A DNA stretch of 25,070 nucleotides from a virus: positions 1 to 25,070 of IMG/VR virus record IMGVR_UViG_3300007511_000137. One strand, 5' to 3'. Positions within the stretch are counted from its first letter, which is position 1; the number at the start of each line of letters is the position of its first letter. Shown piece after piece: positions 1,052 to 10,237 of this stretch. Below the pieces are notes generated by a model. That model saw only the letters and a program-made list of their open reading frames with translations, had not been told where the DNA came from and ran no database searches. Both the position numbers and the translations under genes were made by a program.

Positions 1052-4000
1052 ATGGTTGAAGAAGATGTAGAGAAACAAAATAAAGAAGAGATAGTTAAAA
1101 ATATTGGTGAGAATATTGGCAATATTGACAACATTGAAATCAAATATTTCAATAATAATTTAGGTGCTCCTGCCCCCACACCAGAAGGAATTTCTCGAAC
1201 TGAACCTGTTGCTGATACTTCTATCCTTACTGGTCTTGAAAAACTTTTCAAAAATTTTATTTCTGTTCTTCCCAAACCTGTCACTGATACTACTAGTACT
1301 GATTCTTCAGAAACAAATAAAATTATTGAATCTACATCAAATAATATAGTCAATAGTATACAAGAAACTGCAACTGATTCTATCAACTCCATAAAAAATG
1401 TTCAATCTGCAGGCGCTAATGTATTAAAAGGTTTTGAAAAATCTGTTAGTACTATAAAAGTTGGATTGGATTCATTAGACCCAATACAAACTGTACAGGG
1501 TATATCTCGTCTTGCTGCCCAAGTAAATCAACAAACAGACCATCAAAGATTAGATGCTTTCAATATAGCCTCTGGTATCTCAAACATGGATGAAAAGTTT
1601 GTAGAAAGTATTAAAAAACAAACACAGATACAAATAGATGAAATTTCTGCAAGAAGAGATGTAATGGCAACTGAAAAGGTTTTAGCTCAGGAAGCTGCCA
1701 GAGAACAACAACTACAGATGAACAGGATGTTGGAAGCTCTTGAAGGAATAGAACTTACTACTACTGAAATGCCTGAAAAAATTGATTCGGGTGAAATTCC
1801 TTTGATGATACTTGCTGGAATAGGTGGGCTACTTACTGGAATTGGTATCGGTGTTGCAGAATCTATCAGAGATATATTTTCTGCTGTATTTGGAAAAGAT
1901 AGTTACATCGGAAAACAATTACAAAAATTAAAAGCTGCATTTGGTAAAGATGGAAGAATAGGAAAATTCATAGTAAGAATAAAAAATTTTTTCACAAATA
2001 GCAAACTATTCAAAACTATAGATACTGCAATAGACTCTTTTAAAGTAGCATTGAAAGAAAGTTCTATAGGTAAATTTGTAGGTAGGATTAAATCATTTTT
2101 CACAAACGGAAAACTATTTAAGAAAATTGATGATGCAATAGACACCTTCAAAGCCGCCCTCAAAAATAATGCAATAACAAGATTCGTTGGAACATTAAAA
2201 ACCTTCTTTATGGAAGGTAAAGTGTTTAAACAAACCAGAATTGCCATAGATGCAATAAAAAATGTATTCAGTAGTAAAACAGGATTTCTTAATACTATTG
2301 ATGATTTTATAAAACCTGTCCGTACTCTTTTTGGTGGTGGTGGAAAACACACGAAAACCATTAGTAAAGTTATAGGAGATATGGGAAAAGTATTCGGATA
2401 TTTCAAAAATATTGGCAAAGTTATAGGAAAACTTTTCCTACCATTCACTATTGTAATGGGTCTGTTTGAAACCTTCACAGGTGCATTTGATGCATTCAAG
2501 AAAAAAGGGGATGATGACACCAGAGGATTTGGTGAAAGACTGTTAGATGGTATAGGTGGTGGTTTGAAAGCCATCCTTGACTTTTTCATCTTTGATTTGG
2601 CAAAACTCATTGAAGATGGTGTAAAGTTCCTAGTTACATGGTTTATGGGTCTATTCGGTGTAGAAGAAGAAACCATAAAAGCAGTATCTGATTTTAGTCT
2701 GGTAGATAATATCAGAGATGCTGTAATGAAAGCCGTAGATTATCTGGTTGGTCTTTTCAAGTTTGAAGATACCTCTTTTACTGGTATAGCAAAATCTCTC
2801 GTTGACATCGTTACTGCACCTCTAGGACTTGCCATTAACTTCATAAAAGATTTATTTGGATGGGGTGACCCAGAAGAACCATTCAGATTTTCCACATTCG
2901 TAGTGGATGTATTCAACTCAGCAGTAACTTGGATTAAGAATCTATTTGTTGACCCAGTAGGAACACTCACCACAACTCTATCATCTCTAGCTGCAGGAGT
3001 TGGTTCTTTTGCAGACTTCATAACTGCACCACTCAAAAGTGGTATTGCTTGGATACTTGGTATATTCGGATGGGATGAAGCAGCAGCTGCAACTGAAGAG
3101 TTCTCCTTTGAGAAAACTATCACAGATGTATTTGATAAAGCTGTTGCATGGATTAAGGGTATATTTGCTGACCCAGTAGCAGGATTAACTGAATTACTTG
3201 GAACTATAGCTACAGGAGTTGGAAGTTTCTTAGACTTTGTTACCGCACCATTAAAGAAAGCAGTAGCTTGGGTACTTGGATTATTTGGATGGGATGAAGC
3301 TGCACAAGCAGCAGAAACATTTTCCTTTACAAAAGTTATTAATGATGCCTTCAATGCCGCAGTCAAGTGGGTTAAAGACCTCTTCACATGGAGTACAGAA
3401 CCAGTAAAAGAAGGTGACAGTTTTATCGTTAAGACTGTTAAGACTGTAGTTCAAACTGTAGAAGATTGGTTTGGAAGTATGTTTAAGTTTGATAGTACCT
3501 CTGATATAATTGCTAGTTTGGTCAATGTTGTCACATGGTTACCAAATCTAGTAGCAAAAGGAATTACTGCTGTTACCGCATGGTTCTTAAAACTTCTTGG
3601 ATTTGATGAGAAATCTAAAGCTGTTGCAGATGCTGGAAAGAAATTTAGTATTGGTGATATGTTAATGGATGCAGTTAGTGGTATAGTTACATGGTTTGGA
3701 GATTTGTTTGATAAAATCACAAATTTTGATTTCGCGTCTATAGCAAAATCTATAATGCCAACAAAATTATATGATTGGATATTCGGTGGTGGTCAAGAAG
3801 TATCTGAAGCAGCCAAGAAAACTGTTGCTAAAGCTGAAGAAGGTTTCTCTGAAGAGAAAGCCAAAAAGTCCAGAAAAGAACTTGTTAAAATGGATTTACT
3901 GGATGAAGATTGGTTCTCAAAGGATAATCTTGAATTAGAAAAAATTCAAGAAGCATTGAAAGGTCAACAAACGAAGGGTGGTGGCTTGACAGATATGGGT

Positions 4001-4696
4001 AAAAGCTTAGTACAAGCACTAACAGTCCAATTAGGTGATACTGATATAGCAGAGGAAGAACGACAAAAACTTGCAGAAATGTTGGAAGAGGCAAAAGGTA
4101 CGAGGAAAAAAGCCATTGCAGCTAAACAACCTATTAATGTTGCTAAGACTGCAGAAACAGTTACTGCACCAGTTGAAGCAATAAAGAAAAAACCGACTAG
4201 AAGAGAATTACAGATTGAGAGAAAAGAACAAGAAGAAAATGCATATAAGACTATTATGCGAGTTCTTGGAATGGAAACAGGTTCAAGATTTGATGTTGTA
4301 AAATCACTTTCCCAAATGAAAGTAGAAGCTGGTGTTGAAAGTATATCTAAATTATTTTCACCAGAAACATTAAAAGCAGCAAATATCAAACTTGAACATT
4401 TGGAACAGGGTGGACTAATAAAAACTTCTGGACTTGCTGAAGTTCATAAACATGAATTAATGTTAGACAATCAAGCCGCTAACGTTTTCATGAAAGCTGC
4501 TCAACTCTTGACTAATTCACAAGCATTAGAACAAGCTAGAATGGGAAATGGGTCACCTGTCATAATAAATAATGTTGACAACAGCCAAAGAAATCCTGTT
4601 GTCTCAAATCAAGCAACTCAGATTAAAGTACCAGATAATCCAAGACCAAGTGACCCAACTATGTTAGCAGTTCAAGGTTCTCAAATGTTTAATTAG
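1052..4696 (+). CDS. Tail tape measure protein
   Basis: The 1214-residue protein fits a tail length (tape measure) protein. It is long and repetitive, with coiled-coil-like charged stretches (residues 60-240), a glycine-rich hydrophobic segment near 250-270 (LAGIGGLLTGIGIG), and amphipathic/hydrophobic repeats through the middle. Three 36-residue repeats start at residues 304, 340 and 376. A 73-residue unit starts at 611, 684 and 757, with looser copies before (about 548) and after (about 865). The C-terminal region, with GGLIKTSGLAEVHKHELMLD, resembles the tail end of many tape measure proteins. Such proteins fill the tail tube, set its length and leave ahead of the DNA. T4 gp29 (about 590 residues) is half this length, so a longer tail or an unrelated tape measure type is possible. 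The ATG follows AGAGG and lies 3 bases after the frameshift ORF. The stop overlaps the convergent stop of gp32 by 2 bases. Confidence 0.8.
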   Translation: MVEEDVEKQNKEEIVKNIGENIGNIDNIEIKYFNNNLGAPAPTPEGISRTEPVADTSILTGLEKLFKNFISVLPKPVTDTTSTDSSETNKIIESTSNNIVNSIQETATDSINSIKNVQSAGANVLKGFEKSVSTIKVGLDSLDPIQTVQGISRLAAQVNQQTDHQRLDAFNIASGISNMDEKFVESIKKQTQIQIDEISARRDVMATEKVLAQEAAREQQLQMNRMLEALEGIELTTTEMPEKIDSGEIPLMILAGIGGLLTGIGIGVAESIRDIFSAVFGKDSYIGKQLQKLKAAFGKDGRIGKFIVRIKNFFTNSKLFKTIDTAIDSFKVALKESSIGKFVGRIKSFFTNGKLFKKIDDAIDTFKAALKNNAITRFVGTLKTFFMEGKVFKQTRIAIDAIKNVFSSKTGFLNTIDDFIKPVRTLFGGGGKHTKTISKVIGDMGKVFGYFKNIGKVIGKLFLPFTIVMGLFETFTGAFDAFKKKGDDDTRGFGERLLDGIGGGLKAILDFFIFDLAKLIEDGVKFLVTWFMGLFGVEEETIKAVSDFSLVDNIRDAVMKAVDYLVGLFKFEDTSFTGIAKSLVDIVTAPLGLAINFIKDLFGWGDPEEPFRFSTFVVDVFNSAVTWIKNLFVDPVGTLTTTLSSLAAGVGSFADFITAPLKSGIAWILGIFGWDEAAAATEEFSFEKTITDVFDKAVAWIKGIFADPVAGLTELLGTIATGVGSFLDFVTAPLKKAVAWVLGLFGWDEAAQAAETFSFTKVINDAFNAAVKWVKDLFTWSTEPVKEGDSFIVKTVKTVVQTVEDWFGSMFKFDSTSDIIASLVNVVTWLPNLVAKGITAVTAWFLKLLGFDEKSKAVADAGKKFSIGDMLMDAVSGIVTWFGDLFDKITNFDFASIAKSIMPTKLYDWIFGGGQEVSEAAKKTVAKAEEGFSEEKAKKSRKELVKMDLLDEDWFSKDNLELEKIQEALKGQQTKGGGLTDMGKSLVQALTVQLGDTDIAEEERQKLAEMLEEAKGTRKKAIAAKQPINVAKTAETVTAPVEAIKKKPTRRELQIERKEQEENAYKTIMRVLGMETGSRFDVVKSLSQMKVEAGVESISKLFSPETLKAANIKLEHLEQGGLIKTSGLAEVHKHELMLDNQAANVFMKAAQLLTNSQALEQARMGNGSPVIINNVDNSQRNPVVSNQATQIKVPDNPRPSDPTMLAVQGSQMFN
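1961..2284 (+). repeat. Three 36-codon tandem repeats in the tape measure gene
   Basis: Units begin at 1961, 2069 and 2177, exactly 108 bases apart. Each encodes a variant of GKFxxRIKxFFTNxKLFKxI followed by a D-A-I-D-type helix. The copies have diverged at the DNA level but keep the protein pattern. Confidence 0.8.
2882..3400 (+). repeat. 73-codon tandem repeats in the tape measure gene
   Basis: Units start at 2882, 3101 and 3320, exactly 219 bases apart. Each opens with F-x-F-x-x-x-[VI]-x-D-x-F and the first two carry DPV, GVGSF, TAPLK and LFGWDEAA-type blocks in order. The third copy diverges after the first 25 or so codons. Degenerate copies start near 2693 and 3644. Confidence 0.8.
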
Positions 4697-5879: not shown

Positions 5880-6410
5880 TCAACCCTTATATTTGAAAAA
5901 CTCATTAAACCCTTTTATTACTACCTTAACATCTTCCCATTCAGAAACATGACATATTTCAATCTCATATTTTGATTCCATAACTGAAATATCTTTTTGA
6001 ATATCTCCCAAAGTTGTTGGTTTTATAATTTTATTTTCAGTATCAAAAAGAACAGGAGTTGTTGTATAATCTACAACATCTCCTATCCCAGAACTTAAAA
6101 GTTTATCTGCCCATTTATAAATATGTTTTTTAGCCTTACCAGCTAGTCTCTTGACATTAACTGTATAGCCTAAATTTTTATATTTACGAATTCTAATGTA
6201 ACCATCTTGGAAAAGTTTTAATAAAATTTCTTCTCTGGCCTTACCTTCTTTTCTCAAAGGTTCATCATGTTTATCGTATATCTTCTTAATATCCCCAAGA
6301 GACATTCCAAACTTTTTGGGATATGAAATAACATCACTAATATGAGTCATCCTAACATTATAAACCTGACCTTTAGGGTTAATCCAAAATGCAGCATCTT
6401 TACTAGCCAC
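5880..6410 (-). CDS. Conserved phage protein of unknown function, upstream of gp33
   Basis: I do not recognise a named family for this 176-residue protein. The N-terminal half (AAFWINPKGQVYNVRMTHISDVISYPKKF) and the later block DGYIRIRKYKNLGYTVNVKRL look like a helical domain followed by a small beta-rich domain. It is lysine-rich and soluble, with no signal or membrane segment. The start overlaps the end of the previous gene by 8 bases and the stop lies 2 bases from the chosen gp33 start, so it is translated as part of the gp33 operon. Confidence 0.75.
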   Translation of the reverse strand: MASKDAAFWINPKGQVYNVRMTHISDVISYPKKFGMSLGDIKKIYDKHDEPLRKEGKAREEILLKLFQDGYIRIRKYKNLGYTVNVKRLAGKAKKHIYKWADKLLSSGIGDVVDYTTTPVLFDTENKIIKPTTLGDIQKDISVMESKYEIEICHVSEWEDVKVVIKGFNEFFKYKG

Positions 6411-7011
6411 TAATATCCTTCCAATGTTTTTTGGCTACACTATTTAATGCCCACCATCCCATTCCATTGCCAGGATTTAAATGTTCATCCCCAACTTCCT
6501 CAAAAATAAATGGTCTGCCGTTGACATAAGAAGTGTAGATTGGGGAATCATATCCCAGCTTACCCTTACCAAATGTTTCTTTTTTATTAAACCCTAACCA
6601 ATTATTTTTACATCTATTCGTTCCAATTAAATATGCTTTAGCAGTATTTTGAATTGCCCCTTTTGGAATAAACAAAACACTATCCTGTTCAAATTCCTCA
6701 CCAAATTTTTTCATATCAGATTCTAAATTATCAGAATCTTCTAAATCAACAATAAAATAACTAATCTCTTTACCAACTGTTCCACCCTCTGGATACTTAC
6801 CTTTTAGAGTTGTTGCTCCATATCCTTTAGATTTTATTTTTGCCAATAAAGACCTATTTCGTTTTGCATTATCTGCATTTGAATATTTTTCTCCCTCACC
6901 ACAATCTGCAGCCTTACGGAAAGCAGTCATTGCACCACAATCATGTTCTTCATTATGTTTCCATAGTCTGGATAAACTAGATTCTATTATGTACTGATTA
7001 AATTGTTTCAT
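6403..7011 (-). CDS. Unknown protein with a T4-like capsid-targeting N-terminus
   Basis: The function of this 202-residue protein is unknown. Its first ten residues, MKQFNQYIIE, closely match the capsid-targeting peptide of T4 internal proteins (MKTYQEFIAE), which prohead protease gp21 cuts after the glutamate. This suggests, by inference, that the protein is packed in the head and injected with the DNA. The body contains NRSLLAKIKSKGYGATTLKG and a long aromatic and glycine-rich C-terminus (GNGMGWWALNSVAKKHW). The start overlaps the iscU stop (ATGA) and no strong ribosome-binding site is visible, so translation is probably coupled to iscU. A weak resemblance to DUF3293-like phage proteins is possible but unverified. 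Confidence 0.75.
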   Translation of the reverse strand: MKQFNQYIIESSLSRLWKHNEEHDCGAMTAFRKAADCGEGEKYSNADNAKRNRSLLAKIKSKGYGATTLKGKYPEGGTVGKEISYFIVDLEDSDNLESDMKKFGEEFEQDSVLFIPKGAIQNTAKAYLIGTNRCKNNWLGFNKKETFGKGKLGYDSPIYTSYVNGRPFIFEEVGDEHLNPGNGMGWWALNSVAKKHWKDISG

Positions 7012-7397
7012 GTTGTTATATTGTTTTTAGATTTGTAATCGTTTATTGCTGCCTTGATTGCATCTTCGGCTAATACCGAACAATGAATCTTGACAGGCGG
7101 TAACGAAAGTTCTTCCACGATTTCCACATTACTGATTCCTTCCGCCTCTGATATAGATTTACCAGTAACCCAATCAGTAGCAAGGGAAGAAGCAGCAATA
7201 GCGCTGCCACAGCCAAAAGTTTTGAACTTAGCGTCAGTAATTTTTCCACCATTATCGACCTTTATTTGAAGTTTCATAACATCTCCACATGCTGGAGCAC
7301 CCACAAGACCAGTACCGACATCATCACTCCCAGAATCCAAACTTCCAATATTTTTGGGTTGTGCATAATGCTCCAATACCTTCTCAGAGTAGGCCAT
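7008..7397 (-). CDS. iscU: IscU-type iron-sulfur cluster scaffold protein
   Basis: The 129-residue product matches bacterial IscU over its whole length. In cells IscU receives sulfur from the desulfurase IscS, builds a [2Fe-2S] cluster and passes it on with the chaperones HscA/HscB. All key residues are present: Cys37 in VGAPACGDVMKLQI with Asp39, Cys63 in FGCGS, Cys106 in KIHCS with His105, and the HscA-binding motif LPPVK at 99-103. It is not the longer NifU form. No iscS, hscA or ferredoxin gene is nearby, so it presumably works with host partners. The start overlaps the previous stop (TAATG) and the stop overlaps the next start (ATGA), so it is a fixed part of the operon rather than a recent insertion. 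A phage target for the clusters, such as a ribonucleotide reductase helper or an oxidised host enzyme, is a guess. Confidence 0.93.
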   Translation of the reverse strand: MAYSEKVLEHYAQPKNIGSLDSGSDDVGTGLVGAPACGDVMKLQIKVDNGGKITDAKFKTFGCGSAIAASSLATDWVTGKSISEAEGISNVEIVEELSLPPVKIHCSVLAEDAIKAAINDYKSKNNITT

Positions 7398-8966: not shown

Positions 8967-9194
8967 TTATTTCTTCTCTACGAATTCATACAACTCAGAT
9001 GCCTTCTTCTTAATATCATCAATGGTGTAAGATTCAGGTTGAAGTTCTTTCCATAACTTCATATTTGCATCACCTTGAGCTTTTGCATCATCCCATGCTT
9101 GATACATCATATTTTCAGATCTGGCATAATTATCACTAAGATAACTTTGTGCCATCTCTAAAAGTTTAAATCGTAGTTCAAATGGATTAGACAT
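8967..9194 (-). CDS. Unknown small helical protein
   Basis: This 75-residue, almost wholly helical protein (MSNPFELRFKLLEMAQSYLS, ending ASELYEFVEKK) has a pattern I associate with conserved small proteins of T4-like marine phages. No function is known to me. The ATG has AAAGGAAATT upstream. It is the first gene after the tmRNA terminator, so it either has its own unseen promoter or depends on read-through. Confidence 0.7.
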   Translation of the reverse strand: MSNPFELRFKLLEMAQSYLSDNYARSENMMYQAWDDAKAQGDANMKLWKELQPESYTIDDIKKKASELYEFVEKK

Positions 9195-9224
9195 AATTTC
9201 CTTTCTATGTGTGTGTTATGTGTG

Positions 9225-9262
9225 TATTAAAAATGAGGGTCTTCTGTTCCCAAGTGACCCTC
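9225..9262 (-). terminator. Terminator-like hairpin at the 3' end of the tmRNA gene
   Basis: On the - strand GAGGGTC (9256-9262) pairs with GACCCTC (9235-9241) across a 14-base loop and is followed by ATTTTTAATA. This is a plausible intrinsic terminator for the tmRNA transcript. The same helix could instead be the last helix of the coding piece. Confidence 0.55.
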
Positions 9263-9278
9263 TGTACTCGGCTATCGG

Positions 9279-9332
9279 TTATGCTGCAAGAGCATAATAT
9301 TCCGATGCAGAAATATAATCGTTATTATCTGC
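9279..9332 (-). CDS. tmRNA degradation-tag reading frame
   Basis: The frame starts at the resume codon GCA (9330-9332) and ends with TAA (9279-9281). It encodes ADNNDYISASEYYALAA. The C-terminal YALAA is the form recognised by ClpXP/ClpAP in many bacteria. It is translated only by trans-translation, without its own start codon. Confidence 0.88.
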   Translation of the reverse strand, partial: ADNNDYISASEYYALAA

Positions 9333-9424
9333 GATTATGTTTAATTGGACTTTTTTACAACTGTACCTATGTTGGATACCTCCCCAACTGCCGTCACAAT
9401 CAATCGAATTCCCGAACATCCCCA

Positions 9425-9511
9425 TCATACGAGCACAAATTCAAGACCCCAAATAAGTAAAATAGCAATTCCAAATACTGCAAATGCTATGGTAATTTCT
9501 CGCGCGTCCAT
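9425..9511 (-). CDS. 28-residue membrane peptide in the tmRNA spacer
   Basis: An ATG at 9509-9511 opens a 28-residue frame starting MDAREITIAFAVFG and ending WGLEFVLV. It has a charged N-terminus and then one continuous hydrophobic helix. It fills nearly all of the sequence between the tmRNA halves, and its TGA ends 2 bases before the 5' base of the coding piece. The upstream AAGAG is only a weak ribosome-binding site. A second 28-residue membrane peptide of similar build lies at 17231-17317. It may be chance, since the spacer is short, but a clean membrane helix with a start codon is suggestive. Confidence 0.45.
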   Translation of the reverse strand: MDAREITIAFAVFGIAILLIWGLEFVLV

Positions 9512-9583
9512 CTGATGCTCTTATGGTGGAGATGGGCGGAGTCGAACCGCCGTCTTAACTGCTATCCAATTGTATCATCAGTA

Positions 9584-10237
9584 TCATGAATATTTAGTAA
9601 TCACCTGTCTCAGTGGCTCTATCCACCTCTCTTTCGTTTCTCTGAACAGCAGAGGTTCATCACCTTCTACTGCCATAATTATTACAATATCGTTTATGGA
9701 GATTCCAGTAAGTTCTTCATAAGCATATGCATAGAAAGCTCCTTGCATGAAATAACTATGACACATTTCCCATGTCTTTCTTTTTCTGGAAGTCTTATAA
9801 TCTATGACTGATAGTTTCTCATCAAACTCACCTATCAAATCCGTTCTTCCAGCAACACCCAAGTCATCTGAAAATAATGCACCCTCAACCACATGAATGT
9901 TATCTATTCTATCTAAAAGTGGCACAATAGAATTAAACATTTCTATTGCGTCTGGTAACTCACCCTCTAATATCCCGACTTGGTTCTGGATATACGACTC
10001 ACAGATATTATGTACGCGGGTGCCTCTACTGCTAGCCTGTCTACTAATCTTGTTGGCCTCTGCCTCACCAACCCTTCTTCTCCATTCGATAATTCCTTGC
10101 TTGGAGAGGTTGCCGAGTAGCGTTGTAATGCTAGGGTACTTATTGCCTTGAGTAGTGACATAATATCTCTTCCCTTCAATGTTTTCAGTTTTTAAATCTT
10201 TAAGGTCATTACCCACATGATTAAAAGTTTTCATCAT
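9584..10237 (-). CDS. PD-(D/E)XK (RecB/Cas4-like) exonuclease
   Basis: The 217-residue protein carries the PD-(D/E)XK nuclease core: RGTRVH at 71-76, Glu119 in VVEGALF, GRTDLIG at 130-136 and VIDYKTS at 144-150. Asp133, Asp146 and Lys148 are the metal-binding/catalytic set. YFMQGAFYAYAYEE, with the conserved glutamine, is the QxxxY-type motif of the RecB/Cas4 subfamily. This points to a DNA exonuclease for recombination or end processing. The start ATG overlaps the previous stop (TGATG). It ends right where the tmRNA acceptor piece begins. Confidence 0.85.
   Translation of the reverse strand: MMKTFNHVGNDLKDLKTENIEGKRYYVTTQGNKYPSITTLLGNLSKQGIIEWRRRVGEAEANKISRQASSRGTRVHNICESYIQNQVGILEGELPDAIEMFNSIVPLLDRIDNIHVVEGALFSDDLGVAGRTDLIGEFDEKLSVIDYKTSRKRKTWEMCHSYFMQGAFYAYAYEELTGISINDIVIIMAVEGDEPLLFRETKERWIEPLRQVITKYS

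Follow-up and report, generated by a model that had tools for sequence, protein, structure and literature searches.

A predicted membrane-microprotein reading frame in the spacer of a permuted phage tmRNA gene

The subject of this analysis is a permuted transfer-messenger RNA (tmRNA) gene encoded on the minus strand of a 25,070-base IMG/VR virus record from a marine phage (IMGVR_UViG_3300007511_000137; hereafter the window, i.e., the whole stretch of DNA that was analysed). The spacer between the two halves of this gene carries a 28-codon open reading frame (ORF), MDAREITIAFAVFGIAILLIWGLEFVLV, which together with its stop codon fills 87 of the 100 spacer nucleotides (nt) and is predicted to encode a microprotein with a single transmembrane (TM) segment. 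We consider it highly probable that the locus is a late-expressed RNA gene with two products, the tmRNA and a membrane microprotein. What appears to be new is the conserved membrane-microprotein ORF in the tmRNA spacer, overlooked in the first-pass annotation of this DNA; the two-piece phage tmRNA itself has already been published (PMC9004378; PMC11915505).

The tmRNA gene and its conservation

ARAGORN called a permuted tmRNA at 9188-9616 (-) with the tag ADNNDYISASEYYALAA, and cmscan at the gathering threshold matched positions 9585-9279 (-) to the Rfam model RF04321 (tmRNA_permuted) with a score of 93.2 bits, the cut-off being 47 (E=3.9e-17). The match is full length and not truncated (model positions 1-213) and is the only cmscan match in the whole window. 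Both results confirm the phage-encoded permuted two-piece tmRNA with a readable tag that had been proposed from the sequence alone. In the permuted order, the 3' half is encoded ahead of the 5' half, and a 7-bp acceptor stem joins them, GGGGATG (9423-9417) pairing with CATCTCC (9534-9528) with a G3-U70 wobble included. This alanine-identity pair and an encoded CCA (CUCCACCA) are both present, and the tag frame, with its resume codon and (A)LAA end, reads ADNNDYISASEYYALAA up to the stop codon. The parts of the gene and its upstream neighbour are as follows:

9584..10237, minus strand: upstream exonuclease gene, conserved synteny (phrog_298, E=1.4e-68)
9524..9585, minus strand: 3' half of the tmRNA (RF04321 alignment, covariation)
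9559-9555, minus strand: P2 3' strand, pairing with the P2 5' strand 9403-9399
9551-9535, minus strand: T-arm GGCGG-TTCGACT-CCGCC (sequence)
9534-9528, minus strand: acceptor 3' strand CATCTCC (sequence)
9527-9524, minus strand: encoded ACCA (sequence)
9424..9523, minus strand: intervening spacer, 100 nt, predicted to be lost in tmRNA maturation (ARAGORN domain boundaries)
9279..9423, minus strand: 5' half of the tmRNA, from the acceptor 5' strand GGGGATG through the P2 5' strand to the tag end (ARAGORN, RF04321, covariation)
9279..9332, minus strand: tag frame ADNNDYISASEYYALAA plus stop, codons 9332-9279 (ARAGORN)
9229..9262, minus strand: terminator-like hairpin GAGGGTC...GACCCTC with a 14-nt loop, then ATTTTT (sequence); probable end of the 5' half, not picked up by a consensus terminator scan

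Comparison with 29 relatives showed that every position of the acceptor stem and T-stem is paired in all of them and that position 3 of the acceptor is GU in 29 of 29. Compensatory changes affect acceptor positions 5 (AU/GC/CG) and 6 (UA/CG/GC) as well as T1-T3 (T2: GC/CG/UA). The P2 pairing holds in 23-29 of the 29 and involves as many as 5 kinds of pair. On 35 viral contigs there is a relative of the upstream exonuclease, and a permuted tmRNA was called by ARAGORN directly after this gene in 16 of the 21 closest (L002-L022); L017-L019 gave no ARAGORN call, yet the spacer ORF is present in them at the corresponding position, and the contigs L014 and L016 stop before the presence of the tmRNA could be judged. 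The further neighbours of the tmRNA are phage-like as well, including genes for a single-stranded DNA-binding protein, baseplate hub and endolysin. Judged by this conservation, the tmRNA is neither a chance pattern nor a decayed fragment. A fragment of host ssrA, or an attachment (att) site remnant, captured through recombination might be considered because tmRNA genes are frequent integration sites; with both halves complete, synteny fixed among the T4-like contigs and covariation seen across the 29 relatives, this origin is exceedingly improbable, in agreement with the initial argument that the acceptor and P2 pairings speak against an att-site fragment.

We consider it very likely that the gene yields a working two-piece tmRNA, for which rescue of ribosomes or replacement of the host tag by a phage one is plausible. 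Very unlikely, in our view, is a role of the RNA as a decoy or inhibitor of host trans-translation instead of a working rescue RNA, because diverged relatives retain features that a decoy could do without: the tag frame, the ALAA end, the resume region, the CCA and G3-U70. A search of eight phage records, of which several are fragments, detected no smpB gene but was positive in 10 of 14 control genomes, so that the tmRNA would depend on host SmpB.

The older clade-specific Rfam models all remained below their cut-offs, the best listed being beta_tmRNA (43.2 bits vs 84), and alpha_tmRNA (RF01849) had no listed match, gathering threshold included. The alpha_tmRNA model named in the first-pass annotation is not the best clade match. 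The alphaproteobacterial host proposed there is a weak inference, given that the clade-specific models stay under threshold and that hosts of this phage group include SAR11 as well as OM43 (PMC9004378). In a single scan of a genome collection with a degenerate pattern of the tag type, the sole match was a spirochaete tmRNA of the one-piece form, which does not identify the host; no named phage matched the window tmRNA in a blastn search.

The reading frame in the spacer

The spacer is delimited by the CCA, which ends at 9524, and by the acceptor 5' strand, which starts at 9423; a Shine-Dalgarno (SD)-like site follows immediately 3' of the CCA, and the ORF stop TGA lies one base ahead of the GGGG of the acceptor stem. 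Three features are of importance here:

9425..9511, minus strand: spacer ORF, predicted 28-amino-acid (aa) single-TM microprotein MDAREITIAFAVFGIAILLIWGLEFVLV (sequence, relatives, hydropathy, pN/pS)
9515..9520, minus strand: GAGCAT, SD-like GAG plus 5' strand of the spacer end-stem (sequence; pairs with 9436-9431)
9431..9436, minus strand: GTGCTC, 3' strand of the spacer end-stem, within the ORF end (pairing)

The predicted microprotein contains a hydrophobic TM segment with a best 19-residue Kyte-Doolittle mean of 2.53. The same plan recurs with other sequences in diverged relatives (MDGDLIFFTVVILIGTAGFLWVIEAVLL, MEKAGIILVISLLLWCAIIYGVVYFGFL, MNDTSRLALWTLFIVAVVILLELLEMLTV and MDDMGVIMLWVFILSMIIGFYYILEIILVT, among others): the ORF is 28-30 aa long across nearly all of the marine clade despite the divergence, an SD is almost always present (in most cases an AGGAG-like site 3-11 nt 5' of the ATG), and, with few exceptions, one to nine bases separate the stop from the acceptor 5' strand.

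The number of ORFs expected by chance was estimated using only loci found independently of the spacer, that is, via the exonuclease, the T-arm or the tag, and counting ATG-initiated ORFs of at least 20 aa with a TM-level hydropathy peak in non-redundant spacers of at least 66 nt. Such a TM ORF is present in 15 of 55 spacers, where dinucleotide-shuffled versions of them gave an expectation of 0.34; spacers picked by an SD-plus-ATG pattern, which supplied further lineages but are biased for both features, were excluded. Between close relatives, the ratio of non-synonymous to synonymous polymorphism (pN/pS) is 0.32 in the ORF frame and 0.64 and 1.95 in the other two, and differences at codon positions 1/2/3 amount to 90/24/141, both being sums that reuse sequences. 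When the count was restricted by hand to seven separate pairs (L001-L002, L005-L248, L013-L022, L106-L107, L157-L213, L161-L192 and L178-L186), the differences were 34/12/57 (chi-square about 29, 2 degrees of freedom). Between L015 and L022, the ORF shows 7 synonymous changes and 0 non-synonymous ones. By these measures the spacer ORF is under purifying selection specific to one frame, and a translated spacer microprotein appears likely.

The alternative is that the locus is an ordinary phage two-piece tmRNA with a chance frame, or an unselected leftover, in its spacer. The tmRNA alone is already known from phages (PMC9004378), some relatives and all of the named isolates checked are without the ORF, and chance TM ORFs with an SD do exist, for example out of frame within the NifU gene. 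A chance origin is nevertheless quite unlikely in the light of the excess over the shuffled spacers, the frame-specific selection and the near-constant length maintained over strongly diverged sequences.

Candidate standalone copies of the microprotein, namely TM ORFs of 29-30 aa found near L009-L011, at 7366 (-) in the window and in L013, were rejected because they lie out of frame inside the NifU_N/IscU-like gene and are an alternative-frame artefact. A tblastn search of phages with microproteins of this family gave no match, which is uninformative given low-complexity filtering.

TM ORFs of 22-41 aa are also present in the spacers of L047, L134, L178, L186, L195 and L218, whose tags are AND-type or otherwise different; these ORFs are perhaps of independent origin. 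Given the different construction of the tags that accompany the TM-ORF spacers of L047, L134, L178, L195 and L218, the ORF-in-spacer design may have arisen more than once.

Expression, folding and a proposed mechanism

A promoter candidate precedes the tmRNA:

9591..9598, minus strand: T4-type late-promoter-like motif ACTAAATA (same motif class in relatives)

Of 37 non-identical relatives, 33 have the sequence [AC]TAAATA 26-53 nt 5' of the 3' tRNA domain, the background probability being 0.006; the window carries the CTAAATA variant. The sequence is retained at loci whose upstream gene is distant or different: the end of the exonuclease is 160-840 nt off, or no exonuclease was detected, in L058, L077, L094, L106, L248, L249 and Melnitz. 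The motif resembles the late promoter of T4 and cyanophages, TATAAATA/NATAAATA (PMC2984593), and a start about 6 nt downstream of it, near 9585, would match the 5' end of the Rfam match. Its conservation points to late expression of the phage tmRNA gene. For the tmRNA of Methylophilales phage Melnitz, an early promoter and early expression have been proposed (PMC9004378); contrary to that proposal, the conserved late-promoter motif predicts a tmRNA acting late in infection.

The spacer ends of permuted tmRNAs generally pair with each other (median shuffle p of 0.005 over 91 other loci), and this also holds for the ORF-bearing family (median p of 0.015), in which one side of the end-stem contains the SD and often the start codon, and the other the last ORF codons. 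Translation of the ORF should therefore be low or gated by processing, and we infer from the predicted folds that ORF translation and tmRNA maturation should compete, or that translation may wait for processing. A hairpin switch between the SD and the CUCC of the acceptor was considered and discarded, since folding generally did not support it (mean SD:CUCC pairing of 0.10) and the SD pairs with the ORF end instead.

This arrangement raises the alternative that translation of the spacer matters and the peptide does not, a ribosome opening the end-stem and so timing tmRNA processing, as in leader-peptide control. The location of the SD and start codon in the end-stem would fit such a device, as would the nearly universal distance of 1-9 bases from the ORF end to the acceptor 5' strand. 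A pure leader peptide would need neither the conserved hydrophobicity nor the purifying selection at the amino-acid level, and we regard this explanation as unlikely.

Several observations weigh against the preferred reading of a dual-product gene. The motif in the window overlaps the last exonuclease codons, so that conservation at this position alone is unconvincing. The SD of the window ORF is weak (AAGAG), SDs have a mean unpaired probability of 0.16-0.18 in the predicted folds and are thus mostly paired, and a motif also present in ORF-less spacers overlaps the SD. The stop position is partly due to a TGAT leader before the acceptor stem, which is likewise present in ORF-less spacers (HTVC008M). 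The microprotein has no PHROG match and belongs to no recognised family, which makes any function assigned to it a guess. Finally, the TM ORF is missing from L009-L011, from L249 and from the named isolates HTVC008M, Mosig and Melnitz. Absence from relatives that possess the tmRNA implies that the ORF is dispensable for the tmRNA and a separable cargo; in the sister pair L248/L249, in which the tmRNA, flanks and tag are nearly identical, the L249 spacer is only 24 nt long and the difference amounts to a near-exact loss of the ORF.

The tmRNA structure, the coding selection on the ORF, the end-stem, the promoter motif and the presence or absence of the ORF are based on comparison, and for the transcription timing, processing, charging, translation and microprotein role we infer the following as the best explanation. 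The gene would be transcribed late in infection by a T4-like phage from its own late promoter. In the folded transcript, the alanyl acceptor stem would join the 5' half to the 3' half and enclose the 100-nt spacer. RNase P and 3'-processing nucleases of the host would then cut out the spacer to leave a two-piece tmRNA, which, with host alanyl-tRNA synthetase, EF-Tu and SmpB, would rescue stalled ribosomes and append ADNNDYISASEYYALAA. This transcript, or the spacer once excised, would double as a mini-mRNA, with the SD-like site after the CCA driving translation of the microprotein. Our low-confidence guess for the latter is a late membrane effector acting on the envelope or on lysis timing, because it has one TM helix in 28-30 residues, would be expressed late and lies about 1.5 kb from an upstream endolysin gene; a type I toxin-like or a respiratory-subunit-like role is also conceivable. 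More broadly, we are inclined, by a modest degree, to see here a class of phage genes, each with a single precursor RNA that gives rise to a working tmRNA and a spacer-encoded membrane microprotein, co-expressed late and coupled by competition between translation and maturation.

Small hydrophobic single-TM proteins of 20-50 aa are known from bacteria, including the type I toxins TisB, ShoB and Hok and the subunit-like KdpF and CydX, and hok-type mRNAs occlude their own ribosome-binding site through end-to-end pairing. The predicted microprotein is comparable to these proteins in its small size and one TM helix, and its precursor to hok-type mRNAs in the predicted occlusion of the SD. No sequence homology to these proteins was found, nor an antisense RNA, at which no search was aimed, and the N-terminus of the microproteins is often acidic, not cationic. 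If the proposed reading holds, tmRNA spacers, so far treated as waste RNA, would in this case be a conserved gene, and the precursor a natural dual-function (coding and non-coding) RNA in which the conflict of translation with RNA maturation can be tested. The microproteins would then constitute an unstudied family that annotation pipelines would miss because its members lie inside an RNA gene.

Related systems and other genes of the window

Two-piece ssrA has been published for Melnitz (MZ577097) and for Pelagibacter phage Mosig (MT647606) (PMC9004378), and PMC11915505 reports 79 phage tmRNAs. Like the window, Melnitz, Mosig and HTVC008M (NC_020484) are T4-like Kyanoviridae phages with a permuted tmRNA, located downstream of a PD-(D/E)XK exonuclease gene and upstream of late-transcription coactivator genes, and Melnitz shares the late-promoter motif TATAAATA upstream of the tmRNA. 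Unlike in the window, their spacers (142, 44 and 49 nt, respectively) contain no TM ORF, and their tags differ: ANDNYVPVDYALAA in Melnitz, GEDNFALAA in Mosig and ANFNEYALAA in HTVC008M. The permuted tmRNA of HTVC008M (L240/L255, NC_020484 about 145161-145370) is unannotated. The spacer of the Melnitz tmRNA (L254 2485-2937) contains another SD-led frame, of 54 aa, that is basic and non-hydrophobic and runs into the 5' half.

The RF04321 model, which the window matches over its full length, represents the tRNA-like domain only, with the spacer as filler, and the available text of PMC11915505, from which it comes, does not mention a protein-coding spacer. That paper does describe a comparable nesting of a protein gene in removed RNA, the LAGLIDADG ORFs carried by group I introns that interrupt tmRNA genes; those are homing endonucleases in self-splicing introns, whereas the window combines a permutation spacer with a predicted membrane microprotein. 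Full-text literature searches, which left most subscription journals outside and thus are no proof of priority, returned no report of a protein-coding tmRNA spacer.

ARAGORN also predicted permuted tmRNAs in seven named phages of Synechococcus, Xanthomonas, Alcaligenes, Stenotrophomonas and Pseudomonas, at places where their records have no tmRNA (L256, ON615601; L257, PQ569993; L259, OK149171; L260, OQ427096; L261, KU682439; L262, OQ383211; L263, AP018399); the spacers of these seven contain no TM ORF.

Elsewhere in the window, a 1214-aa ORF at 1052-4696 (+), without a PHROG or Pfam match, is encoded on the strand opposite to most genes. The product of 6403-7011 (-), 2.3 kb downstream of the tmRNA, matches the Pfam S-adenosylmethionine lyase family PF23780 (E=4e-12) and is possibly an anti-restriction enzyme degrading S-adenosylmethionine. 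The adjacent gene at 7008-7397 (-) has a NifU_N match (E=3e-50), corresponding to a phage-encoded Fe-S cluster scaffold, and in L011 an IscU-like gene at 4120-4509 (+) lies beside a gene at 3610-3975 (+) for what looks like an IscA/ErpA-type carrier.
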